A stretch of DNA of 64,000 nucleotides from Prorocentrum cordatum (taxonomy: Eukaryota > Sar > Dinophyceae > Prorocentrales > Prorocentraceae). The stretch is taken from the NCBI GenBank assembly GCA_963575745.1, contig CAUYUJ010015695.1, positions 248,001 through 312,000 of the forward strand, read 5' to 3'. The notes below the pieces were generated by a model that searched no databases, had not been told where the DNA came from, and saw only the letters and a program-made list of their open reading frames with translations. Positions 35,240-54,676 of this stretch are shown one piece after another. The position numbers and the translations under genes were made by a program. How positions within the stretch are numbered: the stretch's first letter is position 1; each line of letters begins with the position of its first letter.

Positions 35240-35380
35240 GCCCCCGCCCTCCCCGCCGGCGCTCCAGAGGGGGGAGGCACCGCCCCATTCTGTGGCCCGC
35301 CCTTCCTCCACTCCAACCACTCCGCCCTCGCGGAGCGCCCGAGGGGGACGAGGGGGGAGGAGGGGGCGCGCGGACGGCGG
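35240..35380. repeat. GC-rich foldback 2
   Basis: The same block as foldback 1 with substitutions that weaken the inner stem (CATTCTGTGGCCC). The outer arm pair GGCGCTCC and GGAGCGCC is kept. Confidence 0.7.
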
Positions 35381-35849
35381 CACATGCGCAGACGAACACA
35401 GACGCAGGATAGCAAAGAACCAATCACACACGCAAGCACACGCGCATAAGCACGCACACGCGTACACACACGGACAAACTCAAATCCATACATACACAAG
35501 AGCACGCACGTACGCCAGCATGCTCCACACACACGCACACATACACACATACACACACGAGCGCACACACGTCCACACGCAAACGCACACACACTCACAC
35601 ACACACGCGCATGTGCACCCAGACACACGCAGGGGCACACACACACACATACGAGACACACGCGCCCCCCCCCCACCCACCCACCCACCCACCCCCACAC
35701 ACACACACATACACACACACGCACAAGCGCACACATAGACGCAATGGCGAACACCCACGGATAACCACGCACAGACGACAACGTTGTGACAGACTCATTC
35801 CCCGACTGGTCAGCGCACTCTTCCACCGCGCCCCCAAGCCCCCCCCACG

Positions 35850-35990
35850 CGCCCCCGCCCTCCCCGCCGGCGCTCCGGAGGGGGGAGGCACCGCCCCATT
35901 TTGGGGCCGGCCCTCCCTCCACTCCAGCCACTCCGCCCTCGCGGAGCGCCGGGGAGAGGGGTGGAGGGGGAGAGGGGGGGGCAGGAAGGG
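35850..35990. repeat. GC-rich foldback 3
   Basis: The same block with both outer arms perfect (35867-35877 and 35942-35952) and the inner GCCCCATTTTGGGGC intact. Confidence 0.8.
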
Positions 35991-36752
35991 GCGGGGGTGC
36001 CAGCGCCATGCGCCCACACACACACACACGCACGCACACGGGCACACACGCACTTTTCCTCAGGGAGCGCGCAGTGTCGCGCACGTACGCAAGCATGCTC
36101 CACACACACGCACACACACACACACACCACACGCAAAGGTCGACACCCACGCGCAAACGCGCAAACACAAACACACAACACATATCACACACACACACAC
36201 ACACCGCGGACACACACACACACACACACACACACGCAAACACACCTGACACACACAAACACACTGACACACACACACACAGATACACACACACGCTCGA
36301 GCACACTCACATCCACACGCGCCCACTCTTACACACACACACACACACACACGAACAGACACGCGCACAAAAAGAGATACAAACAGAGATGCATACAGAC
36401 ACACAGACAAACACACACACATACCCACGGACACACAGACAGACACACAGACAGACACACAAACAGAGCCACAAACACACAGACACAAAGACACCCACAC
36501 ACACACTTACACACACACGCCAGCAGACACACAGGCAAACACAAACACACGCCAGCGCACACACACTCACGCACTGACAAAACATCCTCATGCACACAGG
36601 CACACAAGAACACACATGCAAGACGGACGCGCCTACAGGGCGCCCGTGCCAACCTCCAGTGGCAGCCCAAGCGCCCGGTGCGCTTGAACGGCAGAGCTCT
36701 GTCAACGGCACACCCAGGGCCGGCGAGCGCCGCTGCACACGAGGCGCAGCTC

Positions 36753-39683
36753 TCAGAGAGCCGCGTCCGACACCGCCACGATCGTTGGCTCGTCATCTCC
36801 GCCCCCGCGCAGGCGGCGCAACGTCTGTCGCAGCCTCTCCTCAGTCCACCTGCCAATTCCGACGGGCACGCCCTCCCGACGCGCCACGAAAGCTCCAACG
36901 ACTTCGCCGATCAAGTCCTGCCGCTGGTTGTGCTCGGCGATGGCCAGGCGCTGCCGCCTCTCATCAGGATCCTCCTGCCGCGCGCGATCCTCCGCAGCAG
37001 CGGCAGCGATATCCCGCGTGCTCGCGCGGCTGCCACGCTCCCCGCGCTCTTCGCCCGACGACAGGGCCGAAGCCGCACTGGGCGCGCCAGCCCCTCCAGC
37101 ACCGTCGCCGCCCCCTGTCGGCGCCCTCGCGGCGACGCCATCGCTGGCGGGCACCTTGGCGGATCGCCCCTCCGCGGGCCCCCCCGCGGGCGCGCCACTC
37201 GCGCCAGCCTCGGCCGCGGGCGCCGCGCGCGGGGCCTTGCCTGCATGCCCTCCCCCCGGAGCCGCCTCTGCACGCGCCGCCCCCCCCCGCCCGCTTCCGC
37301 TGGCAGACCCAGCACCTGCTCGCGTGACGACCGCGGCCCGCCCCGCGCCCTCGCCAGTCGCGCCAGCCTCAGCCGCGGGCGCCGCACGCGGGGCCTTGCC
37401 TGCGTTCTTCTCCTTGAACACCTTCAACTTTCCCTCCGGGATGGGCCCGTCCACACGCCCATGCCAACCATCCTTGTGCTGCTGCTTGAAATGCTGCCCG
37501 CACAGATCCCCGCATCCCTGCTTTGGCGCGCTCCGGCATTGCCCGCCAGCTCCGTCCGCCCAGGTACGAGCCATGCACTTCGCGGTGTCAATGTTTTCTG
37601 GCGTAAAGCGACGCCATTCGTCCCCCGCGAGCGACGCCCCCGCGCCTGGCTGGACTCCAGCAGGAGCCGGGTCCGCGGACGGAACGCCAGCGGCCCTGCC
37701 AGCGTCGTCGTCCTCGTCGCCCGTGCTGCCCAGAGCCGGCGGGGACAGCCCGCGCTTCTTGCCCCTGCGCAATGGCTGCTGCGGCTGCCCCGAAGCGCCG
37801 GGGCCCCCGTCGCCAGCGCCAGGATCCCCGCCACCCGCCCGACGCCGCTTGCCCGGTGGCTCGCCCCCCGACGCCTGCTGCCCGGCGGGCGCACTCGGCG
37901 GCGCAGACGGCGCGGCAGGGGCGCTGGAAGCAGCGCCGCCGCCGCCATCGCCGCTCCCCGCAGACCCCGCCGCGCGCCCGCCTGCATGCCCGAGAGGCGC
38001 AGTCGGCGGAGCCGGCGGCGCCCCAGAGGGTCCCGCACCACCGCTGCCGCTGGCGCCCCCCGGAGACCCCGCCGCCGCGCGCCCGCCGCCTCCGCCCCGC
38101 GGACCCGCCCTGCGCACATACGCAAACACATAGGCGCCAACGTGCACCTGGTGGTCTCTGGCAATCTGCGCCCAAGTCCTGGGCTGAACAGCTTCGTCGT
38201 CGAATTTGGCGTATTCGTTCACACCCACGGCTGCACACGCATAATAATGGCCGCTCTTCGCGCTTTCGCCCTGATGCACAACGACCCCAGAGAAATCGTA
38301 CTCGCACTCGGCATCCACAGGCCGCAGAATCTGAGGAAAGCGCACAGGGCGTCTGTCGTACCACTCGCTCCGATCAGCGCGCGTGACCACCCGCTCCACG
38401 GTCACGAAGAGCACCGGCGGCGATCGCTCCCAGCGATTGCCCGTATACACCCTGATGCCTTGACAGACCCCGGCCGCCTCCCTCTGCGCACGACTGAGGT
38501 GTGCGTGCGCCGGACATCCTTGACCTGGCCCGCCAATATGCCTCAATTCCAGTCGGATCAAATCCTCCAGATCGCAGGCCCCCCGGTGGTCGGGGCCGAG
38601 CAATTCGGAAGGGACCAGCTTCAAGCGCGAATCAATCACCCCCGTGTCCGAACTTGCCCGGCACACGTCGCATCGCCTCCGCTGCCGCAACGCAATGCCG
38701 CAAACGTGCTGCTGGAGCGCAGTGCGCGCACCGTGATGCGGTGTCGGTACCTGATATCCAGCCTCGGTGACAGCACGAAGGGCGGCCAGGAAGAACTCTG
38801 ACGCGTCGCATTGCTTCGGTCTCCCTTGCTGATCGAATTCTGTGAATTCTCGCTGACCGAAAAGCCCCGCGCGCGCGGCAGTAGCGAGCGGCGCGACGGC
38901 GTCGACCCCCACGCCCTGGACAGAGAGAGCCGCGGCCTGAGCTCCGAGCGCACACACCGGGCAAGTTTCTGTGTTCAAAGGGCAATTCTGGCCGTGCTCG
39001 TGGAGAAGCCGACGGAAGGGAGCCAGGCGCAGCAGCACCTGCGCGACTGCGCTCACGAAGCAAGTATTGCCGAGGTTTGCGATGCCCACGCCAGAGCCGC
39101 GGCCGCAGTGCCACTGCAGCTCCCTGGTGACATCCTCCTGGGACACGCCGTAGGCTGCCATGCACAGATCCCGGTCCAGCGGGAGCAGCTCTGGCGGCTC
39201 TGCACCATCGCCAACAGTCGCCGCCGTGCGAAACATGTCCCCCCAAAGATCCCTCGGCACTACGGCGCCCCTACCAGCACCGCGGCCGCCACCCGCGCGC
39301 CCGCGCCCCCGCGAAACAGCGCTCCCCGTCGACGATGCCGCCGCCGCATCTCCGGTCCCCGTCGCGTCGCCGCCGCGGCCGCGGCCCCTGCCCCGCCCCG
39401 CAGGCCCAGCGTCCGGCGCAATGTATGCCGGCGGCACCGTCAGAGCCTGGCCCGGGCGCAGCGCGTGCGAGGGCAGAGGCGTATGCACAGACGCCGCAGG
39501 GGCCGCCTCCCCGTCCGAAGGAGCTGATCCGTCGTCGTCGTCGTCGTCGCCCGCCCCCTCACCGACGCCCGCCGAGCTCCCCGCGTCACGAGACGGGCCC
39601 AGCGGCGACGGCGGCGGCACCGGCGGCGGCGCGGGCGCCGAGCTCGACTCCTGGGCGCCCCGTGCGGCGGGCCCATCCCCCAC
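36753..39683 (-). CDS. Ubiquitin-specific protease domain (C19) of ORF2
   Basis: A 976-codon frame that in unit 2 is continuous with the helicase; here a 1-base deletion near 39735 separates them, so the first codon is not a natural start. After a low-complexity Gly/Ala/Arg linker (to about residue 165) the USP Cys box reads NLGNTCFVSAVAQVL with Cys at about 208. The His box reads KSGHYYACAAVG with His at about 479, then YAKFDDEAV, which supplies the third catalytic residue. All three are present, so the fold looks intact. Only one CxxC pair (CDVC) is seen where USPs often have two. Residues about 700-760 form a Cys-rich module (CMARTW...QC...C..LCGQH) ending in WHGRVDGPIP. The C-terminus is coiled and charged. 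Role inferred: removal of ubiquitin from element or host proteins. Confidence 0.85.
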   Translation of the reverse strand: MGDGPAARGAQESSSAPAPPPVPPPSPLGPSRDAGSSAGVGEGAGDDDDDDGSAPSDGEAAPAASVHTPLPSHALRPGQALTVPPAYIAPDAGPAGRGRGRGRGGDATGTGDAAAASSTGSAVSRGRGRAGGGRGAGRGAVVPRDLWGDMFRTAATVGDGAEPPELLPLDRDLCMAAYGVSQEDVTRELQWHCGRGSGVGIANLGNTCFVSAVAQVLLRLAPFRRLLHEHGQNCPLNTETCPVCALGAQAAALSVQGVGVDAVAPLATAARAGLFGQREFTEFDQQGRPKQCDASEFFLAALRAVTEAGYQVPTPHHGARTALQQHVCGIALRQRRRCDVCRASSDTGVIDSRLKLVPSELLGPDHRGACDLEDLIRLELRHIGGPGQGCPAHAHLSRAQREAAGVCQGIRVYTGNRWERSPPVLFVTVERVVTRADRSEWYDRRPVRFPQILRPVDAECEYDFSGVVVHQGESAKSGHYYACAAVGVNEYAKFDDEAVQPRTWAQIARDHQVHVGAYVFAYVRRAGPRGGGGGRAAAGSPGGASGSGGAGPSGAPPAPPTAPLGHAGGRAAGSAGSGDGGGGAASSAPAAPSAPPSAPAGQQASGGEPPGKRRRAGGGDPGAGDGGPGASGQPQQPLRRGKKRGLSPPALGSTGDEDDDAGRAAGVPSADPAPAGVQPGAGASLAGDEWRRFTPENIDTAKCMARTWADGAGGQCRSAPKQGCGDLCGQHFKQQHKDGWHGRVDGPIPEGKLKVFKEKNAGKAPRAAPAAEAGATGEGAGRAAVVTRAGAGSASGSGRGGAARAEAAPGGGHAGKAPRAAPAAEAGASGAPAGGPAEGRSAKVPASDGVAARAPTGGGDGAGGAGAPSAASALSSGEERGERGSRASTRDIAAAAAEDRARQEDPDERRQRLAIAEHNQRQDLIGEVVGAFVARREGVPVGIGRWTEERLRQTLRRLRGGGDDEPTIVAVSDAAL

Positions 39684-42600
39684 GTCCCAGCCGTAATCCT
39701 GCGCCCATTGCTTCGCGATTTCGAAACTCTCCCCATCTTTTTCTCAAAGCGTTGGACCCCTTCGCGGACGTACTGCGGCGGGCCCCGCTGCAGGATGTCC
39801 CAGGGCGGCAGGTTGTAGACGAGCACGCGGTGGGCCACGCGAACGCGACTGAGCATGACGTACAAGTGCAGCCACCAGTCATCGGCGCCCATGTTCATGG
39901 GCTTCTGGAGCACCATGGTGGCCGCATCCATACCCAGGCCCTGCGCAGTCTGCACGGTGCGAACTTTCTCTGGCAGCAACGGGATCTGGTACCTCGTAAC
40001 CTTCACCTTCCGAAGCTTTCGCTCGCCATCGTCGTCGTAGTGATGATTCCACTCCCAGGACGCCCTGTGCGGCGCGATCTGCACGACCCCTTGCCCGAAC
40101 CCAAAGTCCTTCTTGAGGCCATCAAACTCGACGAGGACACCGCGCGGCAAACGCTTGCATCGATAATAACCGAGCCGGTGGGCGTCGTGAAGCTTCTTTT
40201 CGCGCCAATCCGCGTCCGGCGTCTCGAACTCCTGCGGGTGGAACCTCACGTCCTTGACTACCCCCACGGCGTCCTGCACGATCTGGTGCTTCGCCGACAA
40301 CTTCACGTTCAGCCGCACACGCATGCCGATGTACAGCGGGCACATGCCGATGAGGTGACCAGTGTTGTTCACGTTCGGCACCTGCAGCATGGCCTTGTAA
40401 TGCTCCTCACAGAATGGCTTTGGAGGCAGGTCCACGGCCTGCACGTACAGCAGCATCTGCCCTTTATCCCTGGCCTCTCGCACGGCCCGATACTGCATCT
40501 GCCTGTGCACGGCCTCCCAGGCGATGCCCATCTCGAACCCGTCCTTGACATGGGGGTCCTGCAGCCGCCTGTCGTTCTTACCGGGTCGGACCACCCACCC
40601 TTGCACCACCCTTTTCTGCTCGGCCGTAAACTTCTTGCCCTGCCTCATGGTCTTCAAGAACCCGGGCATGAAAGGGCAGGGCGCATGCGGAGTAACGAGA
40701 AGGTCCTTGAAGCGGTGCGTCTCGTACAGAAACATAGCGTGGGTGACACCGTCCAGGAACATGGACTGCCCATTGCGGACGTGAATCGGCGCCTCGGGCG
40801 ACTCACGCTGCAGCAAGGAAGACCTTCTGCCCTTGCCGCTCACCGGCCCCAGCTGATAAAAATCCCCCAGGAACATGACAATCGGAACCTTCCCGAACAT
40901 GTGCCCCCGCGCCATGTACAGGTTCACATCGCAATTATACTTAGCCTTACGGGCTTTGCACATGCGAAACGATGCAGCGCCGAGAAGCTGGGGCGGCACC
41001 ATGGACACCTCCTCCACGATGACGGCCTTGAGGTCGTTCATGCGGTCCACGATGTCATCGACTTTCTGCCCCGAGAGCCTAGCGATGGTCATGGCCTGCT
41101 GGCCGCTCAGCCCGAAGCCGCTGTGGATCGTCTCCCCCCCGATGACGCGCGCAGCGCTGTTCGACGAGGCCACGGCGATCTCCGATCCCGCGCCGAACAC
41201 CTCGTTGAGCAGACGTCGCAGCAGTTTCACCACCTCCGTCTTCCCCGTCCCGCCCTCCCCGTGCAGCAGGAGAGCCATCTGCTCCACCGGCTTGGGGCTT
41301 TTTCCGCTGCGCAGATCTTCCTCGTATGCCACGATGGCCTCCACCTGGCCCACGACCAAGGCGACCACCGCCTTCTGTTCTTTATTGAACGTCACGGGGT
41401 TGTCCGCCCTAGTCGCCCACTCGTTAAACAGCCTCTCCGCGATGTCGCGCGCCCGCCGCGGCCGCTTCGCGTCGCCGGCAACCGCGGGCGGCGGCGGCCG
41501 ACCAGGCACCAGCACGGCAGGCGCCGAACCCGCGAGGCCGCCCCGCCCGTCGCCATCCCCAGGCAAGCCCTCTGATCCCTTTTTCCTGTATCGGAACGCC
41601 TCCTTCTGCTGTGCTTTGCCCTCCTCGAACTGAGAGTCGTCCAACTCGAGACCGACGAAGCCGGTCTGCCTTCCAGTACTCGCGGCAGCAGGCGGCGGCT
41701 TATGGTCTTTCGCATAGCCGTCAAGGAAGATATTCTTATAGACCAAGCTTTGCGACGACCCACGAATAAGCTCCAACTGAGCCACCGCGGGCACCTGACT
41801 ATCCGGCACGGCGTGCGCGGGCATCTGTCGGTGCGCCGCCCACGCTTCGTCCGCCTCGCCCTCGTCGACCTCCTGGGCAAAACCATCCAACGCTCCGCCG
41901 CCGGCGCCCGCCCCCTCCTCCTCGTCCGCCTCCCCGGCAGGCCGATTCCCCACGGCCTCCAGCTCAGCAGGCTGCTCGAAATCCTTGGCCTCCGGACGGA
42001 TCTTGGTTCGCGGCCGCCCTTTCGCCTCCGCCTCCACGTCGAGGTTCGTCGCGACCTGGACGGTCCAGCGTGCCATGAACTCGGCGGCGCTGGGGCGCTG
42101 TGCAAAGTAGCCTGGACGCTCGTCCGGGCCCCGGTTCAGATCGATGTCCTCGATCGTGAACCACTTTCCTGCTCGCCGCTCGCACTCCTCGTACTGCCTG
42201 GACAACGCCACCTGCTTCGCCCACCACTCCTCCCAGGCAGGCCGATGCTTCCCGGACGCGTCGACGCCGGCCCTGTAGGGCGCCCAGGCCGCAGCCCCCT
42301 TCTCAGCCGGCTGCAAAGGACGGAAGATCACAGACTTGAACAGCGCGTTGACCTCTGCCTCTTTCTCCTTCGAAGGCATCGTAAAGCCGAAGAACTTGGG
42401 CACCCTGAACGGCGCGCCGACGCGGAGCTTCTGCACTCGGGAGGCGGCGGCCGGGTGCGTGTCCGCGAACGCGTACGTCTCGAAGTCCTGCGGGTCGAAG
42501 TGGAGCGGGTTGGCCTGCGCGGTGTACACGTACATGGCGTAATGGTACATGCCCATGGACTTCAGGGGCTCCCTGTCGCCGCGATGCAGCCAGTCCATCT

Positions 42601-45600
42601 TCATGTCGTGGTCCAGCCGCGCGCTGTATTCGACACCCTGCTGCTGCTCCTGCTCGGGCTGCCCCCCCCCAGCAGCACCGGCAGCCGCGCCCTCCCCGAC
42701 AACGCCGTCGACGACACGGGCGTGCAGCGTTGCGCGCGCCTCGTCCAGCGCATCCATGACACCGCCGCCCCCCTCGCCGTCCACTTCTCCCGCGGCCGGC
42801 TGGTCCACCTCGATGTGGTCTGCGCGCGGGTCGGTCCAGAAGTCGTCCTTTTTCTGATGAACGGCGGAGCTTGCCTGGAACGCCAGCGCCACGATCCCCT
42901 TGCAATACAGAGTCCAGGTGTCATGGGAGCAATAGCACTCGTGGCCATACTGCATCTGGAACATCATCTCGGGCAGCTTCTTCAGGAGCGCCCGGTGCGA
43001 GCTGGTCGTGAGCTTGATGACAGTTCGCCTGGCAGAGTCGAGCACTCCGCCCCAGCCGCTGCGACGAGCGGCAGCAGCGGCCCGGGCCCCGTCGACGTCC
43101 TCCTCGCCCTCCGCCTCCGCCGCCTCATCCGCCTCCCGCTCCGCCTTCTGCTGGAGTCGGAGCCACTCCAACCCGGTGCTCTGCGCGTGCAGCACTCCGA
43201 GGTCTCCCGCGATCGGCCCCGCCTTGGTCGTGTAGTCCGTCTGGTAGTGCGCCATATTGATGGCGTCCATGAACACGGCCTCCAGCGAGTGCAACACGTG
43301 CTCCCGCAGGCTGCCGGGCGGACCGCTGCCGCTCGCGCCAGCAGCTGCGGCGGCGGCGGGCGACGCGGGCGCGCTCGATGCAGGGCTGCCAGACGCCGCC
43401 GCGCGCGACGCGGCGCGGCCTGGCGCCCGCGACCTCGGCTCTGTCTCGACGGCTGATTCTGGCAGCTCGCGCTCCGCGCGCCGGTCGCTGTAGTAGCCCA
43501 GGCCCTGCTCCCCCTTCTTGAACACGAACCCGGGCCGGCTGCCGTCGTAACACGAAGCCGCGCTGAACCCAGCGATGTCCTCGAATTCCGGCGTCGGCGG
43601 AGGCGGCGGATCCAAGCCATACGCATCGGCCAAATCCCACGGCTCGTCATCCTCTTCTCTGAAGCCCCAGATATCCCCCGCGTTCGGATCGTCCATCGTG
43701 GTCGGCGCCCCGCCGAGCAAACCTCCTCCCCTGGGCAGGCCGAGGCGGCGCCCCACGGGCACGCGCCCGCCCCCCGCCGCAGCCGCGCGCGCCGCCCCCT
43801 CGGCCGCCCCGCCCCCGCCCTGCGCTGCGGCCGACGCCCCGGAACCCGTGGAACCTCCGCTCTGCCCAGTGCCCTCGTCGCAACCGGTGCCGCCAGTCCC
43901 GGCGCCAGCCAGCGCGTCCGATGCCTCGCCGACAGGCTCGGCGAACGCACCGGGCTCCGGAGGCGGCGGCACAACAGGGTCGCTGGCGGGCGCGCGCCCG
44001 ACGCTGTCGTCGCCCGGCAGGTCGAGCACCACGCGGTCCAGGCACTGGACGTCCAGGTTGCTCCGCAGACACACCTGGCCCACAGGGTTCGTGCTCCCGT
44101 GGTACGGGTGGTACCGCACCACGTCGACGCGACCAGCTCTGCCGTACCGGTTGCAGCGGTGCGGCCACGGGCCGTAGCCTTCAGCCGGAACGTCGTCCAG
44201 ATCCAGGCGCTCGCCAGGAGGGTTCCACTCCCCCTCCTCCAACGGACCGCACGCGTACTGAACCTTCGCATCTTCCGGAAGCACCAAATCCTTCCCCTTG
44301 CGCAGGCGCCGCCAGACGAAGGCGGCGGCAGGACGCTTCCTGGACGGGTGGCTGTAGACCGCAGTCTCGTACTCGTGGTAGAAGCCGAGCCGGCACACCT
44401 TGCAGTGCTGAGGCACATCGTCGTTCGTCTTGTGCTTCCAGCACGTGGGACCGCACCTGTGCAGGTGGCCACGGATGATACACTTGCGCGCGTCCCGCGC
44501 GAAGCAGCGCGCCCAGGTCCGCGCCTCATCCCCCGGGCACTCAGCAAAGTGCATGGCCGCGGCGCCGTCCGCGCGCACCACGCGGTACGCAGGCTTGCGG
44601 CGGTACTGCGGCTGCAGCGTCACGTGCGCACCCGTGAGAGGCTCTCCAAATACCGCCGGGTACTGTGCCCGCTGCTCATGGGGATCGGGCTCTGGATCTG
44701 CCAGCGGCGCGAACGGGCGCTGCCGGAGCGGACCCTCTATTGCGGGCTGCTGCTCCAGCATCGCCCGCTCCTCCACGAGATCGACGTTCATCATGGCCGC
44801 AACCTGATTCCGCAGCTCTTCTGTGGACAGTTGGTTGTCAGCACGGACGGAGCGGCGGCCCTCTTCGTACGCCCTCTTGCACAACTTCCCGAGCTGACGA
44901 CGCGAGGCGCCAGCGATGGTATCGTACTTCAATTGGAGGTCGCTCTCCTCTCGCTTCCCGTCCGCGAACGCGAGACGTCGATCCCGCGGGCCGAGCGGAA
45001 GCGGCGGCAGACGGTCCGGCCCGTCCAAGCCCAGCTGCCGGCCCACCTCCTCCGCCGCGTCGAACTGCACGCTGCCGACCCTGGCGAGCACGGCCTCCCT
45101 CCACCTCCTCAGACGCTCCTCGAGGCCTTCGACGTCCCCCGCGCGCAGCTTCGCGAGGAACGCGCCGGTCATCGGGTGCAGGCGCCACAGGTGGATGTGC
45201 GGATGGATGCCGCCGCGCCCCTGCGACTCCACGGGTCCGAAGAACGCGCGGACGAGCCCGAACGCTCCACACGCCCCCGTGGCGGCCACGCCGTCGGAGA
45301 CGCCCGTGGCCCCGCGCTGCCGCGTGACGCCGACGACATGCTCCAGGAACAGTTCCAGCATGAGGTTCGTGACCATGGCCTGCGACACCGGGTCAGCGGC
45401 CACCCGCCGCAGCATGTCCCGCGTTGAGGGCATCACAGGAGCAGTCTCCTCCAGCAGCCGCCATCGCTGTACGGAGGCGCCCTCGTACATCAGGGACACC
45501 ATCAGGTTCCGAGTGTCCGCGATGTTCGGCGTCGTGAACACCAGGGGAGGCCCGAAGAGCCGGGTGTAGCTGGTACTGATGTGCCGCAGCGTGGTCCGGT

Positions 45601-48600
45601 GCGCGTCGGACCCGACGACATCACGGTTGCTGAGCAGCATGCTGCGCAGCGCGCTCTTGACGTTCCGGGGCAAGCCCTCGAGGCCCAGGGCCTCCTTGAT
45701 GCCCGCCCCCCTGCCGAGCACGGCCACGACCTGCGCCAGATCCTCCGGCGTCAGTGCGGCGAGGTCCGCGATGCTTTCCCCCAGACGCTGCTTGCGCACG
45801 AATAACCTAGCCGACTGAATGATAGCCTTTCTGCGCCAGAGGCAATACTGGGCCGTGAGCAGGTCCGCGTGGCGACGCCAGCGCGGCACGGGCGACTCAG
45901 ACGCGGCGGGCGCCCGCGCAGCGTCGGGCGCGGGCGCCCGCGCAGCGTCGGGCGCCGAGACGTCGTCGGGGACCTCGTACTCGAGCTCCTCGCGAGCCAT
46001 GAGGCACCTGCACCACTCGTCGTACGTCAACTTCGCCTCCCTGTCGAGTCCGAAGACGCCGTCGCCGTAGGGAAACGCGACGGGGTCGAAAGCACTCCAG
46101 AAACCGGGGGAGAACATGCTGACAGGCTCGGTTCCAGTGGGCACGACGACCCGCACCGCGCGCCTCGCCCCCCCGCCCTCAGCGCCCCCGGCCGGCGCGC
46201 CGCCGCCGCCGCCGCCGCCACCGGCCGCGCGCTTCCCGGCGACTCCCGGAGGAGGCCGCGTGGCCTGAATCTTCTGCTCCGTCTGCTCCAGCTTCTTCGT
46301 GAGCGCCTCCTTGTTGCAGTTGGTGAGCGCCTTCGCAGCCTTGTGGGCCTCTTTCGCGGCTTCCGCCAAGCGCAGGTCGGAATCTCGGTCCTGGAAATTC
46401 TCCATGTCGTCGAACTGCCGCGTCAGTGCCTCCACACGCCGCTTCTCGCGCGCAATCACCTCCGCCTTCTGGAGGCTGAGGTGCACGGTCTGCCACTGCT
46501 TGTCCAGATCGGCCAGCATGTCGGCGTCCGCGACGGCGGCGCAGTACTCGCCCTCCTCGACACCCTCGCCGCCCTCTCCCTCACCAGCCTCGCCCTCGTC
46601 GCCCTCTGAATCCTCCCCGCCAGCGCCAGCCGCGTCCTCACCGGTGGGATCCCCGCACCCGCCCCCTGCCTCGCCCCCGCCGTCAGCCGCCGCGTTCGCT
46701 TCGCCCTCCGCGCTCGCTGCGCCTGCACTCGTCCGCTTCGGCGGGGCCGAGCCCGCGCCGGGCTGCACGGCGTCGGCCGGGCCCTCCTGGCGAGCGTCGC
46801 CGCCCTTACCCCCCACGGCCACGCACGCCGCGAGACAGCGAGGCAGGCCCAGGAGCGAGGAGCCGTCGCCATCGCCGTCGCCCTCGGGGTCCGCAAAGTT
46901 TTGCGCGGCCTCTTCGTCCCACCGCACCGCGGCGTACTGCTCGTTCGTGTCGCGGAGGTACTCGTAAGCGCGCTTGAAATCGGCGAGGGGCACGCCGAGC
47001 TCCTCCAATAGCGCCTTCTGCAGGGTGGCGGGGTCGGACCCCGCGAAGACAATCTGCACGAACTCGACGAGGTCGCTCTCCCGCGGCGGCAGCGACAGCA
47101 CCTGCCGGCCGCCGTCCGCCTGCGGGAACGCCACGAAGTTCCCCACGTACGCCTTGATCTTCTGGTCGATCGGAGCCCACTCACCAGAGTCGGCCTTGCA
47201 GTTGAACCGCCGCACGATGCCCCGCGCGATGGGCAGCAGAAGCTTCGCGCCCAGCGTGAGATTCCGCAGCGGCGGTGGCAGCCGACCGATCCAGAGATCG
47301 TTGGCCAGCGCGCAGGGCGGCATCGTGGGCAACCTCTTGGAGAGCGCGCCGTGACACCCTGCGCAGATGGGCACCTTCTGCTTCGCGTCGGCCACGAGCA
47401 CCCCGTCTGACTGGCGCCTGTCAATCTTGAAGCACTTCTTGTGCAAGAGCCACAGCTTCCCGTCTGGGCCAGGGTCGCGCACTGCGGACGCCTCCAGCTC
47501 CTCGAGGGGGATGCCGCCCGGGCGCTCGACGCCGTTGGGGCCCTCGCGCACGAAGCGCCACCGAGCGTGGTACCGTGCCGGGTCCAGCAGCGCGTGGGCG
47601 CGCTGCCGCTGCGTCAGGCGCATGGCCTGCGCCTGCGCGCCCGCGGCCTCGGATGCCTCTCCCCTCGCCGCCTCGAGCTCGGCGCGCGCGGGCGGCTTCG
47701 GCACCTGGTCGCAGAGCAGCGAACGCTCCCCGGCGCCGTCCGGCTGCTGCCAGAAGTGCACGCGCTGCAGCTCGTCCGCCCAGTGGAGACGAGCGCAGAC
47801 GCAGCACGCGACCCTCGAGCGCACGGCGCGGCGACTCTGCCCGGGCTCGGGCCCCTCGACGTCCGACGCCGCCGGCGCAGCGCCCAGCGCGTCCAAGTCC
47901 ACGGGCGGCATGTCCACGCCCGCGGGCGGCACGGCCCCGTCCGCGCCTGGCGGCTTCCACCAGGCGCGCGGCGCGTCCGGCGCGGCAGCGGCGGCGGCGG
48001 CCTCCCCCGAATCGGCGGGCGCTGCGCAGGCCGGCCAGTCGTGAGACCCCGTGACGAGGTGCTCAGAGAAGGCCTCCACGCACTGCCGCCACTCCTGGGG
48101 CCTCACGGGCCGCACGTCGTCGTCCTGCTGGGGCCACTGCTCGGCCAGGTAGAACAAGCGCTTCCTATACTCCGGCCACCCGTGGTGCTTTTCGTGCACG
48201 TGCGTCATGAAGCCGGCATGCGTGGCGAAGTTCTTGTCGCAGAGGCGGCACGGGAACGGCGGGAGAGCCTCCGGGGCCTCTTTAAATGCCCGCAGAGGAC
48301 GGCGCTCGCCACACGGGAGGGCCACATACTCGGGCTGGAGCCTGGGCACGCGCGCCTTGCGAGCGGCAGCGATGGCCGGGGTCGGCGCGGGCGGGGCGCC
48401 GCCGGCATCCGTCTCGCGCTTCCGCGCCTCCTTCACGGCCAAGCCATACCGTTCCGGGCACTCGCGCGTCAGGGAACTGTGGCGCTGGTCCGGGTCCCAC
48501 TCCCCAAAAGGTCGCTGCTCGGGTCTGCCGTGGCTCCCACAGAACTGCCCTTCGCCTTTGCAAGAATGCCGGCACTGCCCGAGCACGTGCACGCCCCGGT

Positions 48601-51600
48601 GCGGGTGCCAGACGCGCGCGACGCACCTGCCAGCGACGCACGGCGCGGGGTCCAGGAGCCAGGCCGGCAAGGTGCCCTCCTCGCTCACGTGGGGGTCATC
48701 CAGAGCCACGTTCACCTCCACGTCCCCTGCCTTCACTGTCTTCCCTCTGAGACGCTCCTCCTCTTCCTTCCGCAGCCGCTCCTGCTGCAACCGCTCCTGG
48801 TCCCTTCTCGCCGCCCCGCGAGTCCGCGGCCCTGGGCCCTCGGGGGCTTGCCTCTTGGGTCCGCCGCCGAGCAGCCGACCCGCGCCCCCGCCCGCGCCCC
48901 CGTCGCCGTCGCCGCCCGCGCCACCGTCGCCCGGCCCCTGCGCACCAGAGCCCGACCCCGACGCTGGTCCACCGTTCGCACCGCTGCCCGAAGAGGACCC
49001 GCCGCCGCCGCCGCCGCCGCCCCCGGAAGAGTCGTCGCCGCCGCCCCCTCCTCCCACCACCTCATCCCCGCACCCCGCCAGCCGCAGCCATTGGCTGCAT
49101 GTCCGGTCCAACCAGATGCGCACGAATTCCTGCGAATACTTCGTCGCCACCCTTGCAACACCCCGCGCGAGCTTCGCTTCCTTGAAATCGGGCTCCCCGC
49201 GCCGATCGGCGAACGCGTCCGGCCAGACACCGCCGTGACGGGCACGGAAATCGTCGAGGGCAATCAGAACGTCCTTATCATTCTTTGCGGCCGCGTCGTC
49301 CTTCTCCACCGCGGCGAGCAACGCGGGATCCCTCTCGAGCGCAGCGAGCAGGCGCTGCTGGTCCAGGTCCCAGTGCCCCGCGGCGAGGTTCCACGTCAAG
49401 CCCACGCCCGCCCGCTCCCGGCGCACGAAAGCCGCCACCTGCCGCGCCGCCTGAGGCTTCAGCTTGAGGAGCTGCTGCCAGACGGGCCACTCGGGGATCG
49501 CCTGCGGCTTCAGGTCCGCCAAGTACACGGGCGGCTTCAGGTCGCCACTCGGGGACCGCCGCGCGCCCTCGGCGGCCTCCACCCTGTACATTATGTCGCG
49601 GTCGCCCTCGAGCTGCTGCAAGCGCGCGGCCAGGGCGTCGCCCATGCGAGCGACGCCGCCGCGCGCGCGGCACCAGGCCCGCAACAGCCAGAGCTCCGCG
49701 GGCACGTCGCCCGGCTCGCCCGTGTAGTAGCCGCGCCGCCCCTGGGGGAACGTGTCGGCGGCGAAACCCGACTCCACGGCCTCGGAGAAGAACGCACGGC
49801 CAGGGCCGGCCCACGCTTTCGGGATACCGAAGACGCGCGGCCAGGGCGCCAGCCTGCTCCCGTCGGGCCCCGCGCGCTGGTACCACGGCTCCAGAGCGTG
49901 TCGCTGGTCCAGCTGCACGCTCGCTTCGCAGTTGTCCTGGTGGAAGCACTCGTCCTCCAGCAGCAGACCACGGAACTCAGCGAATCCGTTCTCCCCCCCC
50001 GCCGCGCACCGGGCCGCCTGCGCGCGCTTCCTGGCGCGGGCGCGCTCCGCCTCCACCGCCTCGCGCTTCATCACCGCCTGGCTAGGCAGCTTCTTCGGCG
50101 CGAAATGCAACCTCTTACACCAACCATCGACCTCTCCGTCGGTCAGCTCCCGCGCGCTCTCGAAATCCTGCTGGCACTTGTAGCAGAGGAAATCAGAGGG
50201 CAGGCGCAAGAGCACGCTGCCGTGCACCGGGGCGCCAGGAGCGCCGTCCAGCCGCGCCTGCTCTGCGTACCGCGCCTGGCGCGTCGCCTCGCGCACCTCC
50301 CCCGGCCTCCAGACCTCGCCCTCGGCGGCGTCCAGCGACGGCAGCAGCGGCGCGCGGACCGGCCCCGGCTTGCCGTCGTCGCGGAGCGACGCGCGCCAGC
50401 GCAGCGGCTCGCGACGGCAGCAGACCCAGACCTCGCGCTCCACGCCCTCCTGTTCGAGCCGTTGGAGCAGGCGCTGCCACTGCTCCCAGGGCTCCCGCAC
50501 GTCCGAATTGGGCACGGGCGTGCGGCGCAGCAGCTCGGGGTCGGCCCTGCGCAGGCGCCGGATCGCCTGCGACCGCGCCACGTTGTCCTGCGCCGTGGCC
50601 GCGTCGAGCCCCAGGGCGACGTCCCGCAGCCGCTCCAGCTCCGCCACCTGCCGCTGCAGCTCCGCGTCCGGGGCCTCCCCCGCGAAGAACCTGGGCGCGA
50701 CGGGCACATACGACAGCATGCAGGTCGCCAGCACGTACCGCACGAAATCCTCGTGCTCCTCGTCGATGCCCGTGGGGAGCTCCTCCTCGTCCGCCATGCC
50801 CCGCGGCTCCTCCTCCGCGTCCGCCATCTCTGCGTCCCCCTCCTCCTGCTCCCTCCGCTCCTCGTCGCCCTGCTCCTGCTCCTGCTCCCCCTGCTCCTGC
50901 TCCTCCTCTTCCTGCTCCTCTTCCTCCTGCTCCTCTTCTTCCTCCTCCTCCTCATCCTCCTCCCCGAGCGCCTCGCGGCGCGGCTCTTCGGCCGCCGGGG
51001 CGGCCAAGGCTTCGCGGACCCGCCTGTCTTTGGCCAGGGCAACGAAGACGTCGAGCCCGAGCGCGGCGCCCTGCAGCGCGTCCACGTGCTCCAGCAGGGC
51101 GGCCACGAGCGCGGTCTTCACCCGCCGAGCCAGCGCCCTGTCTGCCCTCTGGAACCTAGCGAACATATCCGGCGTGACCTCCGCGCGCCGCTCCTCCGCG
51201 AGGCAGTCGGCCGGGTCCTCCTCTTCCTGCTCCTCCTCCTCCTCGCCGAATGCCTCCTCCTCCTCCTCGGCCGCGCGCCGCAGCAGCTCCAGCCGCTGCG
51301 CCTCGAGCGCCCGCGCCTCCGCCCCCCTGCTCTCGGCATCGCGCCGCGCGGCGGCCGCCTGCGCGTACTTCTGCCGCAGCGCGTCGAAGGTCGCGGGCGC
51401 GTTGAAGGACGCCGCGCGGCCCTTCCGCTCGTGGTTCGCGATGAAGTTCGCCAGCCTGCGCTCCTCGTCATCCTCCGCCTTCTCCACCGGCATCCTCTGG
51501 TTCTTCTCGCACCACGCCTCCAGCGCCTGGACCTGGATGAGATCCGCGTCCAGCGCCGCCTCCAACTGCGCTCGCCAGTGCTCGTCCAGGCCCTGGCGGC

Positions 51601-52027
51601 CGTGCGCGCGCACGTTGCCGATCCACATCGCGAGCAGACGCTCCCGCGCATCGTCGTCATGACCGCCGCTCCTGGGCGCGCGCCCGTGTGTCTCCACGAA
51701 AAGCTTTACCTCGAGCACACGCTGCTGCGCCGTCCGCCGCTGCCACATGCCCCTGTTCACCAAACGATCGAACCTCTCCTGGTTGTCATCATCCAGCTTG
51801 TTCTGGCCAGTGGTGACATGTGGATCCACTTCGCGAGCTTCTTCTCCTCCTCGTCCTCTGCCCCCCGCTTCGGCAGCTCGTCGAGCACCTCCACGTGCTC
51901 CTCGATGCGGTCCAGCATCGCGCGGGCGCGCGCGCGCCTCTCCTCCCGCCGGTCCACGAGCCCGTCGAACCGCGCGCGCCGCTCGGGCGTCAACGGGAAA
52001 TGCCCCGTGCTCACGTTGTGCACCCAT
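39440..52027 (-). CDS. Giant Helitron-like Rep-PIF1 helicase polyprotein (ORF2)
   Basis: An open frame of 4195 codons; residues about 69-4097 are in the homologous frame, and both ends run on past frameshifts. In order: helicase-associated-like repeats (69-240); Glu-rich tracts (250-275, 352-404); CYKC (about 612); a Cys-rich CxARxW module (1126-1167); a C2H2 finger CRLCDKNF..HVHEKHH (1260-1282); a DUF6570-like block with CAGCHGALSKRLP, RRFNC and FVAFPQ (1548-1660). The Helitron Rep N-terminal domain (about 2136-2281) ends in HPHIHLW, the HUH motif. A Cys/His block follows (2515-2556), then YQTDYTTK with Tyr 2928 and Tyr 2932 spaced as YxxxY, the expected two catalytic tyrosines. The PIF1 helicase (about 3540-4075) has GEGGTGKTEV (3588), VIVEEVSMV (3667), FLGDFYQLGPV (3719), TVQTAQGLGMD and LSRVRVAHRVLVY. 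Predicted function: nicking, strand transfer and unwinding in rolling-circle transposition. Confidence 0.9.
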   Translation of the reverse strand: MGAQREHGAFPVDARAARAVRRARGPAGGEARARPRDAGPHRGARGGARRAAEAGGRGRGGEEAREVDPHVTTGQNKLDDDNQERFDRLVNRGMWQRRTAQQRVLEVKLFVETHGRAPRSGGHDDDARERLLAMWIGNVRAHGRQGLDEHWRAQLEAALDADLIQVQALEAWCEKNQRMPVEKAEDDEERRLANFIANHERKGRAASFNAPATFDALRQKYAQAAAARRDAESRGAEARALEAQRLELLRRAAEEEEEAFGEEEEEQEEEDPADCLAEERRAEVTPDMFARFQRADRALARRVKTALVAALLEHVDALQGAALGLDVFVALAKDRRVREALAAPAAEEPRREALGEEDEEEEEEEEQEEEEQEEEEQEQGEQEQEQGDEERREQEEGDAEMADAEEEPRGMADEEELPTGIDEEHEDFVRYVLATCMLSYVPVAPRFFAGEAPDAELQRQVAELERLRDVALGLDAATAQDNVARSQAIRRLRRADPELLRRTPVPNSDVREPWEQWQRLLQRLEQEGVEREVWVCCRREPLRWRASLRDDGKPGPVRAPLLPSLDAAEGEVWRPGEVREATRQARYAEQARLDGAPGAPVHGSVLLRLPSDFLCYKCQQDFESARELTDGEVDGWCKRLHFAPKKLPSQAVMKREAVEAERARARKRAQAARCAAGGENGFAEFRGLLLEDECFHQDNCEASVQLDQRHALEPWYQRAGPDGSRLAPWPRVFGIPKAWAGPGRAFFSEAVESGFAADTFPQGRRGYYTGEPGDVPAELWLLRAWCRARGGVARMGDALAARLQQLEGDRDIMYRVEAAEGARRSPSGDLKPPVYLADLKPQAIPEWPVWQQLLKLKPQAARQVAAFVRRERAGVGLTWNLAAGHWDLDQQRLLAALERDPALLAAVEKDDAAAKNDKDVLIALDDFRARHGGVWPDAFADRRGEPDFKEAKLARGVARVATKYSQEFVRIWLDRTCSQWLRLAGCGDEVVGGGGGGDDSSGGGGGGGGGSSSGSGANGGPASGSGSGAQGPGDGGAGGDGDGGAGGGAGRLLGGGPKRQAPEGPGPRTRGAARRDQERLQQERLRKEEEERLRGKTVKAGDVEVNVALDDPHVSEEGTLPAWLLDPAPCVAGRCVARVWHPHRGVHVLGQCRHSCKGEGQFCGSHGRPEQRPFGEWDPDQRHSSLTRECPERYGLAVKEARKRETDAGGAPPAPTPAIAAARKARVPRLQPEYVALPCGERRPLRAFKEAPEALPPFPCRLCDKNFATHAGFMTHVHEKHHGWPEYRKRLFYLAEQWPQQDDDVRPVRPQEWRQCVEAFSEHLVTGSHDWPACAAPADSGEAAAAAAAPDAPRAWWKPPGADGAVPPAGVDMPPVDLDALGAAPAASDVEGPEPGQSRRAVRSRVACCVCARLHWADELQRVHFWQQPDGAGERSLLCDQVPKPPARAELEAARGEASEAAGAQAQAMRLTQRQRAHALLDPARYHARWRFVREGPNGVERPGGIPLEELEASAVRDPGPDGKLWLLHKKCFKIDRRQSDGVLVADAKQKVPICAGCHGALSKRLPTMPPCALANDLWIGRLPPPLRNLTLGAKLLLPIARGIVRRFNCKADSGEWAPIDQKIKAYVGNFVAFPQADGGRQVLSLPPRESDLVEFVQIVFAGSDPATLQKALLEELGVPLADFKRAYEYLRDTNEQYAAVRWDEEAAQNFADPEGDGDGDGSSLLGLPRCLAACVAVGGKGGDARQEGPADAVQPGAGSAPPKRTSAGAASAEGEANAAADGGGEAGGGCGDPTGEDAAGAGGEDSEGDEGEAGEGEGGEGVEEGEYCAAVADADMLADLDKQWQTVHLSLQKAEVIAREKRRVEALTRQFDDMENFQDRDSDLRLAEAAKEAHKAAKALTNCNKEALTKKLEQTEQKIQATRPPPGVAGKRAAGGGGGGGGAPAGGAEGGGARRAVRVVVPTGTEPVSMFSPGFWSAFDPVAFPYGDGVFGLDREAKLTYDEWCRCLMAREELEYEVPDDVSAPDAARAPAPDAARAPAASESPVPRWRRHADLLTAQYCLWRRKAIIQSARLFVRKQRLGESIADLAALTPEDLAQVVAVLGRGAGIKEALGLEGLPRNVKSALRSMLLSNRDVVGSDAHRTTLRHISTSYTRLFGPPLVFTTPNIADTRNLMVSLMYEGASVQRWRLLEETAPVMPSTRDMLRRVAADPVSQAMVTNLMLELFLEHVVGVTRQRGATGVSDGVAATGACGAFGLVRAFFGPVESQGRGGIHPHIHLWRLHPMTGAFLAKLRAGDVEGLEERLRRWREAVLARVGSVQFDAAEEVGRQLGLDGPDRLPPLPLGPRDRRLAFADGKREESDLQLKYDTIAGASRRQLGKLCKRAYEEGRRSVRADNQLSTEELRNQVAAMMNVDLVEERAMLEQQPAIEGPLRQRPFAPLADPEPDPHEQRAQYPAVFGEPLTGAHVTLQPQYRRKPAYRVVRADGAAAMHFAECPGDEARTWARCFARDARKCIIRGHLHRCGPTCWKHKTNDDVPQHCKVCRLGFYHEYETAVYSHPSRKRPAAAFVWRRLRKGKDLVLPEDAKVQYACGPLEEGEWNPPGERLDLDDVPAEGYGPWPHRCNRYGRAGRVDVVRYHPYHGSTNPVGQVCLRSNLDVQCLDRVVLDLPGDDSVGRAPASDPVVPPPPEPGAFAEPVGEASDALAGAGTGGTGCDEGTGQSGGSTGSGASAAAQGGGGAAEGAARAAAAGGGRVPVGRRLGLPRGGGLLGGAPTTMDDPNAGDIWGFREEDDEPWDLADAYGLDPPPPPTPEFEDIAGFSAASCYDGSRPGFVFKKGEQGLGYYSDRRAERELPESAVETEPRSRAPGRAASRAAASGSPASSAPASPAAAAAAGASGSGPPGSLREHVLHSLEAVFMDAINMAHYQTDYTTKAGPIAGDLGVLHAQSTGLEWLRLQQKAEREADEAAEAEGEEDVDGARAAAAARRSGWGGVLDSARRTVIKLTTSSHRALLKKLPEMMFQMQYGHECYCSHDTWTLYCKGIVALAFQASSAVHQKKDDFWTDPRADHIEVDQPAAGEVDGEGGGGVMDALDEARATLHARVVDGVVGEGAAAGAAGGGQPEQEQQQGVEYSARLDHDMKMDWLHRGDREPLKSMGMYHYAMYVYTAQANPLHFDPQDFETYAFADTHPAAASRVQKLRVGAPFRVPKFFGFTMPSKEKEAEVNALFKSVIFRPLQPAEKGAAAWAPYRAGVDASGKHRPAWEEWWAKQVALSRQYEECERRAGKWFTIEDIDLNRGPDERPGYFAQRPSAAEFMARWTVQVATNLDVEAEAKGRPRTKIRPEAKDFEQPAELEAVGNRPAGEADEEEGAGAGGGALDGFAQEVDEGEADEAWAAHRQMPAHAVPDSQVPAVAQLELIRGSSQSLVYKNIFLDGYAKDHKPPPAAASTGRQTGFVGLELDDSQFEEGKAQQKEAFRYRKKGSEGLPGDGDGRGGLAGSAPAVLVPGRPPPPAVAGDAKRPRRARDIAERLFNEWATRADNPVTFNKEQKAVVALVVGQVEAIVAYEEDLRSGKSPKPVEQMALLLHGEGGTGKTEVVKLLRRLLNEVFGAGSEIAVASSNSAARVIGGETIHSGFGLSGQQAMTIARLSGQKVDDIVDRMNDLKAVIVEEVSMVPPQLLGAASFRMCKARKAKYNCDVNLYMARGHMFGKVPIVMFLGDFYQLGPVSGKGRRSSLLQRESPEAPIHVRNGQSMFLDGVTHAMFLYETHRFKDLLVTPHAPCPFMPGFLKTMRQGKKFTAEQKRVVQGWVVRPGKNDRRLQDPHVKDGFEMGIAWEAVHRQMQYRAVREARDKGQMLLYVQAVDLPPKPFCEEHYKAMLQVPNVNNTGHLIGMCPLYIGMRVRLNVKLSAKHQIVQDAVGVVKDVRFHPQEFETPDADWREKKLHDAHRLGYYRCKRLPRGVLVEFDGLKKDFGFGQGVVQIAPHRASWEWNHHYDDDGERKLRKVKVTRYQIPLLPEKVRTVQTAQGLGMDAATMVLQKPMNMGADDWWLHLYVMLSRVRVAHRVLVYNLPPWDILQRGPPQYVREGVQRFEKKMGRVSKSRSNGRRITAGTWGMGPPHGAPRSRARRPRRRRCRRRRRWARLVTRGARRASVRGRATTTTTTDQLLRTGRRPLRRLCIRLCPRTRCARARL

Positions 52028-52311
52028 GTCCCAAGGGCGGACTCCTTCTGCGCTGGAACGCGGTCGTGCTCAGCCACGTGCCTCGCCAGCTCGCCCAGCA
52101 TCTCCTCCGAGTGGTCCCGCGATCGCGCCTCCGCGCCAGCACGCTGCACACCGCTCATGTCGATGCCCAGGTGCGCCGCGAGCGCAGCCCTGTACACCTC
52201 AATGTCCAATCGCTTGCGGTCCGGGCCATCCCAGCGCCGCGAAGACGGCACCCCAGTCTCGCGGTCGCCCCGCAATCGCGCAGCCAATTTTTCCAATTCA
52301 GCGAAACTCAT
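51757..52311 (-). CDS. N-terminal part of ORF2, helicase-associated repeats
   Basis: I place the start of ORF2 at the ATG at 52311 (MSFAELEKLAARLRG) because it overlaps the ORF1 stop as ATGA and opens a conserved-looking domain. The frame carries at least two helicase-associated-like units (ALGTWVHNVSTGHF..LTPERRARFDGL and EEKKLAKWIH). At about 51822 homology passes to the next frame, which continues LDDDNQERFDRLVNRG, completing the same repeat. That junction has no obvious slippery heptamer, so I treat it as an indel. The last 20 codons of this frame are spurious. The region is not covered by unit 2 in this window, so it cannot be compared. Confidence 0.65.
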   Translation of the reverse strand: MSFAELEKLAARLRGDRETGVPSSRRWDGPDRKRLDIEVYRAALAAHLGIDMSGVQRAGAEARSRDHSEEMLGELARHVAEHDRVPAQKESALGTWVHNVSTGHFPLTPERRARFDGLVDRREERRARARAMLDRIEEHVEVLDELPKRGAEDEEEKKLAKWIHMSPLARTSWMMTTRRGSIVW

Positions 52312-53918
52312 CCGGGCCAACGCCGCCGCGTCCACCCCATCGCGCGCGCCCCCGCGAGCGCCCTGCGCCCCTGCGGCACCCTGCTCCACACGGCGCTTCG
52401 GCGCCCCGCCCCGCAGCGCGCCCGCGCACCCGCGCGCGGCGACCGCGACGCCGAGCCCGAACGCCCGTGCGCGACGACGCGACACCACGGCGCGCTCTCG
52501 GCTTCCCCCCACTCCACGTCACCAGAACCCACCGACTCCTCCACCGCGCACACATGACCGCCGTCAAGCCACAGCAGAGCACCAGCGCAGAAACCCGTCG
52601 CGTGCCCCAGCGACCACGCCACGCGCCCTCCCTCCTGCGCTCCGAACGCTTCCACAGATTCCGCAGAGAACACACGCACGCGCAAGAAGCGGGAGCGCAA
52701 GTGCTGGACCACGACCTCAAGATTGCAGCGCTCCACCACCGACCCACAAGCGCCGGAACCCTCGTGGTTCTGGCACGCGCGGCCGAAATGCCGCGCAGCG
52801 TCGCCCCCGACAAGCTCAGCCACTGCGCTCTGCAGACACTTCCCACGCCACTCGACTGGACAACTCCCGCGCGCGCGGCGGTTCCCCCGCCCGCGTCCGC
52901 CGCGCGGCCGCGGGCGAAGCGGGCGCGCGGCACCGAATGCACCCACAGACGTGGGCACGGCGCCGTCCTGCGTCGCCCCGCTGAGCCCCGCCGGACACGC
53001 TCCGAGCGCGATCATGGCGCAGGCAGCGCGCACGGCCATGTCCCCGACGAAGTCCTTGGACTCCCGCGCAGCCCGGCACTTCGCTCCGCAAATCCCGACG
53101 CCCGGCGAGAACCGGCGCGCACAGACGCGGCGGCCGCCGCACGTCCGCGCCGAGAGACCGTAGAGCGCGCAGCAGAACCACCTGGCGGTGACGACCGCGG
53201 CTGCACGATCGGCCAGCTCGGGCGCGTCCGGGAGCTCCCGCGCGAACACATCCCGCTGCCGCCACCAGCGCGCCGCCGCGATCTTCCTCGTCATCACCAC
53301 TCTGCTGTCTTCTTGCGGTGGGCACACGCCGAGAGCGACCAGAACGCAGGCTGCGCGCAGGGCCGCGTCGCCCACGGTCCACGACGCGTCGGGCGCAGGC
53401 GCGGCGGCGGCGGCGCGGGGGGCGCGCGCCGGCGGCTCGTCCGGGTCGACGGCACGGGCCGCGCGCGCGGTCAGGAACTGCTCCAATCGCCCGTTGTTGC
53501 GAGCCGCCCCCCGCGCGCTGCGCCCAGACGAAGCCCGCTCTGGCGACGCATCGCGCAACAAGGGGCGCGGCACGACAGGGAGCAGCACACGGTGTGCAAG
53601 CTGCTCGTTCCGCTCGGCCGCCGCCTCCGTCCGCCGCGCCCACTCCGCCTCCCGCCGCGCACGCCGAACCCGCCGGCACGACGCGCGGCACGCTTTCCAG
53701 AGCGATTTCTGCTCGCGCTCCGCCGCCTCCAACGCGGAATCTTCGACGACCTCCTCGTGGATCACGCCGCGCTCTGCGTGCAAACACGCCTGCACCCGGT
53801 CGTCCCATGGCTGCAGCTCCCGAGCCGGCGCCGAGCCTTCAACACAGCGCGCCGGGCAGAAAAACGCTTGCGAAAAATTCGCGAGCGTTTGCCCTTCCCA
53901 GAACGCAGCTCTGTGCAT
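52308..53918 (-). CDS. ORF1 of the giant element, possible cysteine protease
   Basis: A 536-codon frame from the ATG at 53918, the first one inside unit 1; the frame also runs upstream across the unit junction, which cannot be the natural start. The first 120 residues are charged and helical. A unit of about 110 residues is duplicated: VGDAALRAACVLVALGVCP (about 178) and VGDMAVRAACAMIALGACP (about 288). The C-terminal third has RGKCLQSAVAELVGG (Cys about 359) and LLWLDGGHVCAVEE (His about 453), a Cys-then-His spacing compatible with a papain-fold protease such as OTU or Josephin types; this is a tentative reading. No transmembrane segment is evident. The stop overlaps the ORF2 start (ATGA), suggesting coupled translation. 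Function unknown. Confidence 0.55.
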   Translation of the reverse strand: MHRAAFWEGQTLANFSQAFFCPARCVEGSAPARELQPWDDRVQACLHAERGVIHEEVVEDSALEAAEREQKSLWKACRASCRRVRRARREAEWARRTEAAAERNEQLAHRVLLPVVPRPLLRDASPERASSGRSARGAARNNGRLEQFLTARAARAVDPDEPPARAPRAAAAAPAPDASWTVGDAALRAACVLVALGVCPPQEDSRVVMTRKIAAARWWRQRDVFARELPDAPELADRAAAVVTARWFCCALYGLSARTCGGRRVCARRFSPGVGICGAKCRAARESKDFVGDMAVRAACAMIALGACPAGLSGATQDGAVPTSVGAFGAARPLRPRPRGGRGRGNRRARGSCPVEWRGKCLQSAVAELVGGDAARHFGRACQNHEGSGACGSVVERCNLEVVVQHLRSRFLRVRVFSAESVEAFGAQEGGRVAWSLGHATGFCAGALLWLDGGHVCAVEESVGSGDVEWGEAESAPWCRVVAHGRSGSASRSPRAGARARCGAGRRSAVWSRVPQGRRALAGARAMGWTRRRWPG

Positions 53919-54535: not shown

Positions 54536-54676
54536 GCCCTCCCCGCCGGCGCTCCGGAGGGGGGAGGCACCGCCCCATTTTGGGGCCGGCCCTCCCTCCG
54601 CTCCAACCACTCCGCCCTCGCGGAGCGCCGGGGGGGGGAGGGGGGAGGGGGGAGGGGGGGCGCGCGGACGGCGGCA
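54536..54676. repeat. GC-rich foldback 1, unit 2
   Basis: Counterpart of 34631-34770, with the same outer arms and inner palindrome. Confidence 0.75.

Follow-up and report, generated by a model that had tools for sequence, protein, structure and literature searches.

The right half of a 64,000-nucleotide stretch of the genome of the bloom-forming dinoflagellate Prorocentrum cordatum (the window, the whole stretch that was analysed: positions 248,001 to 312,000 of contig CAUYUJ010015695.1, assembly GCA_963575745.1; C14846:248001-312000) contains two tandem copies of a rolling-circle transposon, both with the minus strand as coding strand. This element fuses a Helitron-type replication initiator (Rep) and a PIF1 helicase to a ubiquitin-specific protease (USP), and we are highly confident of both this identity and the stability of the Rep-PIF1-USP fusion. 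The fuller account, that this is a recently amplified, multi-copy Helitron2-like transposon whose USP protects its transposition machinery, seems to us on balance probable.

The tandem repeat fills window positions 34145-64000, with a 19.9-kb unit and 99.2% identity across 9,973 aligned columns. Unit 1 (34145..54049, minus strand) carries a frame of 4,209 amino acids (aa) (39443-52069, minus) in which Pfam matched DUF6570 (PF20209; 46907..47326, frame residues 1582-1721, E = 2.2e-18), the Rep domain Helitron_like_N (PF14214; 45194..45766, 7e-10), and PIF1 (PF05970; 40811..41275, 5.1e-14). The HUH histidines lie at 45205 and 45199, the YxxxY tyrosines at 43232..43246 (located by alignment with homologues), and the Walker A lysine at 41242. 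All of these residues were invariant when the window frame was aligned with eight homologues. An HUH Rep with YxxxY joined to PIF1 places the element in the Helitron superfamily, as the original prediction, made from these letters without database searches, had proposed.

The USP lies in a second frame of unit 1 (996 aa, 36756-39743, minus), together with a tail. In unit 2 (54050..64000, minus, clipped by the window edge), the C-terminal part of PIF1, the USP, and the tail share a single frame of 1,213 aa (56662-60300, minus). The UCH/USP profile PF00443 matched the unit 1 frame at 38118..39089 (3e-23, 83.2 bits versus a cut-off of 23.9) and the unit 2 frame at 58024..58995 (4.2e-23), both on the minus strand. 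Codons for the catalytic Cys, His, and Asp are found at 39062, 38249, and 38198 in unit 1 and at 58968, 58155, and 58104 in unit 2, and the finger cysteines are present. An AlphaFold model of the domain had a pLDDT of 78.7 and a pTM of 0.80; among the Foldseek matches listed, 50 of 50 were USPs or USP-containing complexes (best E 2.4e-19), and the top PDB sequence match was USP36. The UCH profile, Cys-His-Asp residues, and predicted USP fold identify a peptidase of family C19. All four profiles named in advance as a check (PF14214, PF05970, PF00443, and PF20209) were therefore matched, and the call of a genuine C19-type USP was borne out. The domain resembles eukaryotic USPs such as USP36 in its Cys/His/Asp boxes, finger cysteines, and predicted fold, and differs from them in being fused behind Rep-PIF1. 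The USP is probably an active deubiquitinase (DUB).

Could the apparent fusion instead reflect two neighboring genes or separate frames, joined in appearance by GC-rich DNA or assembly error? The 1-nt difference at ~39730 that cuts the 996-aa frame off from the helicase frame of unit 1 is close to the joint, and at 70% GC long frames can arise by chance: the longest antisense frame within one sister open reading frame is 1,534 aa, and 200 first-order simulations reached a maximum of 629 aa. Because long frames arise so easily, we built the case on homology and copies rather than on frame length. These point the other way, since the joint is open in unit 2, as had been claimed, and in 32 sister copies, and both parts occur in all eight of the database proteins described below. 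We consider separate genes extremely improbable. In addition to that 1-nt difference of unit 1, three single nucleotides are missing from the helicase part of unit 2, near 60896, 61321, and 62128. By a hand tally of a subset of the differences between the units, 24 of 36 substitutions were transversions, a pattern that fits sequencing error or decay alike.

Genome searches covered the 4.13-Gb assembly (21,875 contigs). With a 401-aa Rep query (103 of 1,421 candidates scored), at least 103 matches were found at 96% identity or more, 38 of them tied at the top score. For 69 of the 103 listed, PF00443 matched the same strand 6.2-6.9 kb downstream; in 32 of these 69 pairs Rep and USP have an identical listed frame length and were counted as one frame. 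Of the remaining 34 Rep copies, 19 were checked by tblastn, and in 15 of them USP sequence was located where expected. USP sequence thus lies downstream of Rep in 84 of 88 examined copies (among at least 103 Rep matches). The original prediction had staked the stability of the fused system on its occurrence beyond this locus, and recurrence in these copies and in eight of eight homologues supports it.

A PF00443 search of the genome gave at least 147 matches (146 of 1,164 candidates scored). After removal of four host matches (L001, L002, and two of C1647), the surrounding open frame reaches 2,000 aa or more for 58 of the 143 listed and 5,000 aa or more for nine. Six long copies have frames of 5,594, 5,604, 5,742, 5,777, 5,931, and 6,383 aa, all single; that of C15982 contains assembly gaps (1,667 X). 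Open frames for the predicted protein of more than 5,000 aa are seen in sister copies; the frames of the window copies are broken. The first 1,499 aa of the most extended frame (C1693) had no Pfam match. The best 151 PF14214 matches have no contig in common with the 135 contigs of the listed USP matches, and the searches suggest that the genome holds other Helitrons without a USP of the window type. Since there are at least ~100 near-identical copies in one genome, the data point to recent movement. Among viral contigs, 41 pattern-matched stretches were compared by tblastn, and none encodes a relative.

A Rep-PIF1 query returned eight database proteins with 36-51% identity. PF00443, PF14214, and PF05970 are present in all eight and PF20209 in six, in a search that admitted only proteins of 2,315-7,366 aa and so favors long proteins, while short USP-less relatives would escape it. 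Scans of seven of the eight (all but P0008) gave the order DUF6570-Rep-PIF1-USP for the domains found; P0005 and P0009 lack DUF6570, the PIF1 match of P0009 falls just below the cut-off, and the USP of P0004 is cut. In the USP tree, nine lineage USPs form one clade with the USP of P0002, a protein for which no helicase domain was listed (99/99 support, rising to 100/100 once P0010 and P0018 were removed). This clade is separate from three host USPs and from the USP of a second family discussed below. P0010 has a helicase inside the window lineage and a USP outside the clade on a long branch; a position inside the clade was not rejected by the approximately unbiased test (p-AU 0.44), and P0010 perhaps represents a replaced USP domain or a long-branch effect.

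Two subfamilies, ~8-9% apart in DNA, can be distinguished among the long copies. Between them, the ratio of nonsynonymous to synonymous substitution (dN/dS) is 0.14-0.15 for DUF6570, 0.26-0.32 for Rep and PIF1 (PIF1 versus 1, p 2e-9), 0.45-0.47 for the USP (below 1 with p 7e-5), and 0.59-0.64 for the linker preceding the USP (versus 1, p 0.21), all by Fisher tests; the C-terminal tail gave p 3e-4 versus 1 on a poor alignment. These values bear on whether the USP is captured host cargo, a passenger without a function in the element. Helitrons are known to capture genes (PMC6431247; here and below, papers are cited from excerpts of their text), and by dN/dS the USP is the least constrained of the enzymatic domains. 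Cargo would nevertheless have to be reconciled with the constant position of the USP in the homologues and the 84 copies, with a single clade of lineage USPs (P0010 excepted), with Cys and His boxes kept at ~30% identity (P0004 being cut), and with a dN/dS below 1. We regard it as very unlikely.

By their sequence, the element ends look like those of Helitron2 (Bao and Jurka 2013, PMC3627910) rather than those of canonical Helitrons, a feature that the original prediction overlooked. Copies with unrelated flanks have in common the 5' end TTCCCGGATAGCTCCTTGGAGAGCT (seven sites, in three of the six contigs read) and the 3' end GCTATCCGGGTTTTGGACGCTACCAAG. A T precedes TCCCGG at the 5' end. The 3' terminus is CCAAG followed by T in six of eight copies (the two in the window and six fetched); C15982 has CCAA followed by T, and C12667 is more divergent. 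Both ends are seen in C1693 and C1090, where they frame ~21.2 kb. The window copies each have the 3' end, at 34145 in unit 1 (then T on the minus strand) and at 54050 in unit 2, and neither has the canonical 5' end: past ~53836 unit 1 diverges from sister copies, and the Rep of unit 2 extends beyond the window edge (Rep match at C14846:312474).

A 10-bp asymmetric terminal inverted repeat is made up of CCCGGATAGC and GCTATCCGGG, in agreement with Helitron2 (8-15 bp, with the 5' repeat 0-2 bp from the end). Canonical Helitron1 ends (5'-TC, CTRR-3', A|T target) were not found in the eight copies, and no apurinic/apyrimidinic (AP) endonuclease (PF03372), as expected of a Helentron, was matched by Pfam in the window frames or the scanned parts of C1693. 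The family shares with Helitron2 a Rep-PIF1 protein, short asymmetric inverted repeats, a T at the 5' end, no visible CTRR end, and insertion adjoining T, TT being the target expected of Helitron2 and Helentrons. It differs in its length (~21 kb, encoding 5,600-6,400 aa), in a 3' repeat 17 bp from the end, and in its USP, which the excerpts of PMC3627910 do not mention. Helitron2 is expected to have hairpins at both termini; here the 5' terminus can form a stem of 5 bp and the 3' terminus folds weakly (z-scores of -0.25 and -0.24 versus shuffles).

A ~420-bp element adjoining the C1090 copy (positions 23921-24340 of the joined stretch) shares the 5' end of the element, and its 3' end is a variant; because it carries such ends, small, perhaps non-autonomous, derivatives may share the ends of the element. 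Extra minus-strand matches to the 3' end, some weak, occur near window positions 31683, 31654, 31580, 29023, 28917, and 2307, and may indicate further elements that end in this way. From 4831 to 33642 the window contains many arrays that repeat every ~177 bp and run in both orientations; similar arrays adjoin other copies of the element. Pfam matched none of the seven scanned proteins from flanking frames left of 22 kb (E 0.01). A 592-aa frame (52311-54086, minus) lies upstream of the main frame of unit 1; it had no match in the Pfam scan and displays a Cys-rich stretch and a His-containing stretch by eye.

The genome contains a second, distantly related Helitron family that also has a USP (L046:493-8940, plus strand, at genome place C6479:14900-24700). 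The L046 frame, of 2,816 aa, encodes DUF6570, Rep, PIF1, and a C-terminal USP whose top PDB sequence match is USP15. In the rows of the profile search, C3162, C5394, and C11603 have L046-like USP profile ranges and frame lengths. The L046 Rep-PIF1 query retrieved 19 proteins. Among them, P0012 and P0018 contain a USP; P0015-P0017 have a Josephin domain, another class of DUB, C-terminal to PIF1, with Cys and His motifs visible; and P0019 and P0020 have an AP endonuclease. P0011 is partial, and its match ends before the USP. For the remaining relatives no DUB was listed, apart from PF04843 for P0022 and P0023, which we did not count since a scan of P0022 at E 0.001 was without PF04843. The C-terminal tails of P0029 and P0027 appear cysteine-protease-like by eye; as a USP-like candidate the P0029 tail was rejected after a profile comparison with USPs gave no significant match.

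In a helicase tree that left out n_P0025, n_P0028, V_P0023, and P0014 (no Walker A matched), the window lineage forms a single clade (100/100), and the L046 family adjoins the Josephin group. The Josephin proteins resemble the window family in having a C-terminal DUB behind PIF1, and differ from it in the class of DUB and in a helicase akin to that of the second P. cordatum family. A single clade of both USP-bearing families was rejected by this tree (p-AU 4e-6, with long branches present); the USP tree does not discriminate between one USP capture for both and separate captures (p-AU 0.47). The helicase tree and the USP36 and USP15 matches fit separate captures of the USP. Alternatively, elements may have exchanged the domain, or both families may have inherited it from one ancient capture, with losses elsewhere.

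What might the USP do? By analogy with other Helitrons, Rep would nick and join the element ends and PIF1 would unwind the moving strand, both within a single very long protein that runs from an N-terminal region through DUF6570, the HUH/YxxxY Rep, PIF1, and the USP to the tail. The USP could then strip ubiquitin from this Rep-helicase (RepHel) protein or from needed host proteins, so that degradation is avoided. DUB domains of the VTD and OTU classes are known in Helitrons and Helentrons (PMC9741609, PMC4067079, PMC6431247); zebrafish Helitron VTD domains cleave ubiquitin, and their authors proposed that VTDs prevent the degradation of proteins required for transposition (PMC9741609). Helentrons with VTD and/or OTU share with the window family a DUB in a RepHel element and T-rich targets, and differ in the classes of DUB and in a C-terminal AP endonuclease (PMC9741609, PMC4067079), the latter not found in the window family. 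We infer a DUB role because the catalytic residues are kept, the domain is under constraint, the zebrafish VTD is active, and several DUB classes have been recruited. The anti-degradation role extends the VTD proposal, and that protection of the transposition machinery is the main task of the USP can be put forward only tentatively, by this analogy. The second USP-bearing lineage and the three Josephin relatives count in favor of the overall account.

Other findings weigh against that account. Neither window copy is open throughout, as 1-nt breaks interrupt the frame in each. Several of the 15 USPs detected by tblastn are partial or in pieces, and by the same method four of the 88 copies (C9546, C2220 plus strand, C858, and C2968) are without USP sequence at the expected place. 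The dN/dS of the USP exceeds those of Rep, PIF1, and DUF6570. With respect to the ends, the spacing of the 3' repeat falls short of the ~20-30 bp of Helitron2, and the end hairpins are no more stable than shuffled sequences.

USPs cut after ubiquitin and need a ubiquitin-like partner, and dinoflagellate chromatin is histone-poor. The first point concerns the suggestion in the original prediction that the USP cleaves its own polyprotein. The size of the protein, more than 5,000 aa, speaks for it, and Helentron OTU proteases were once suggested to cleave the Rep, helicase, and endonuclease subunits (PMC4067079). Pfam reported no ubiquitin-like domain in the parts scanned (window frames and parts of C1693), so that self-cleavage is unsupported and appears to us a most improbable role. 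The second point counts against a USP that acts on host proteins of chromatin, replication, or repair, for example ubiquitinated factors where the element leaves or inserts, and that opens DNA to the element instead of protecting the transposase. A chromatin role has been suggested for the OTU proteases of Helentrons (PMC4067079), and SAGA Ubp8 is among the Foldseek matches listed, as expected of any USP. The USP36 match of the window family and the USP15 match of the second family point to no shared substrate, and we consider a host target unlikely as the main explanation, with protection of the transposition machinery the reading we prefer. The action on host factors and the evasion of host defence that the original prediction raised may still apply.

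The original prediction regarded a USP as unusual in Helitrons. This holds insofar as the listings and excerpts of the open-licence PMC literature (Repbase being outside the scope) contained no mention of a Helitron with a USP or Josephin domain, and has to be qualified by the VTD and OTU DUBs already known there. The word Helitron is absent from the P. cordatum paper (PMC10666404) and from a dinoflagellate genome review. Our results extend the range of DUB classes in Helitrons to USP and Josephin and describe RepHel proteins far above the usual 1,500-2,000 aa (PMC6431247). We put at even chances the broader view that a DUB slot in Helitrons has been refilled repeatedly by unrelated classes (USP at least twice, Josephin, VTD, and OTU) and that ubiquitin-dependent removal is a widespread barrier. 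If this view is true, the repeated uptake of unrelated DUBs would identify ubiquitin as a means of host control over rolling-circle transposition, and Helitrons across eukaryotes would have to overcome ubiquitin-dependent removal.

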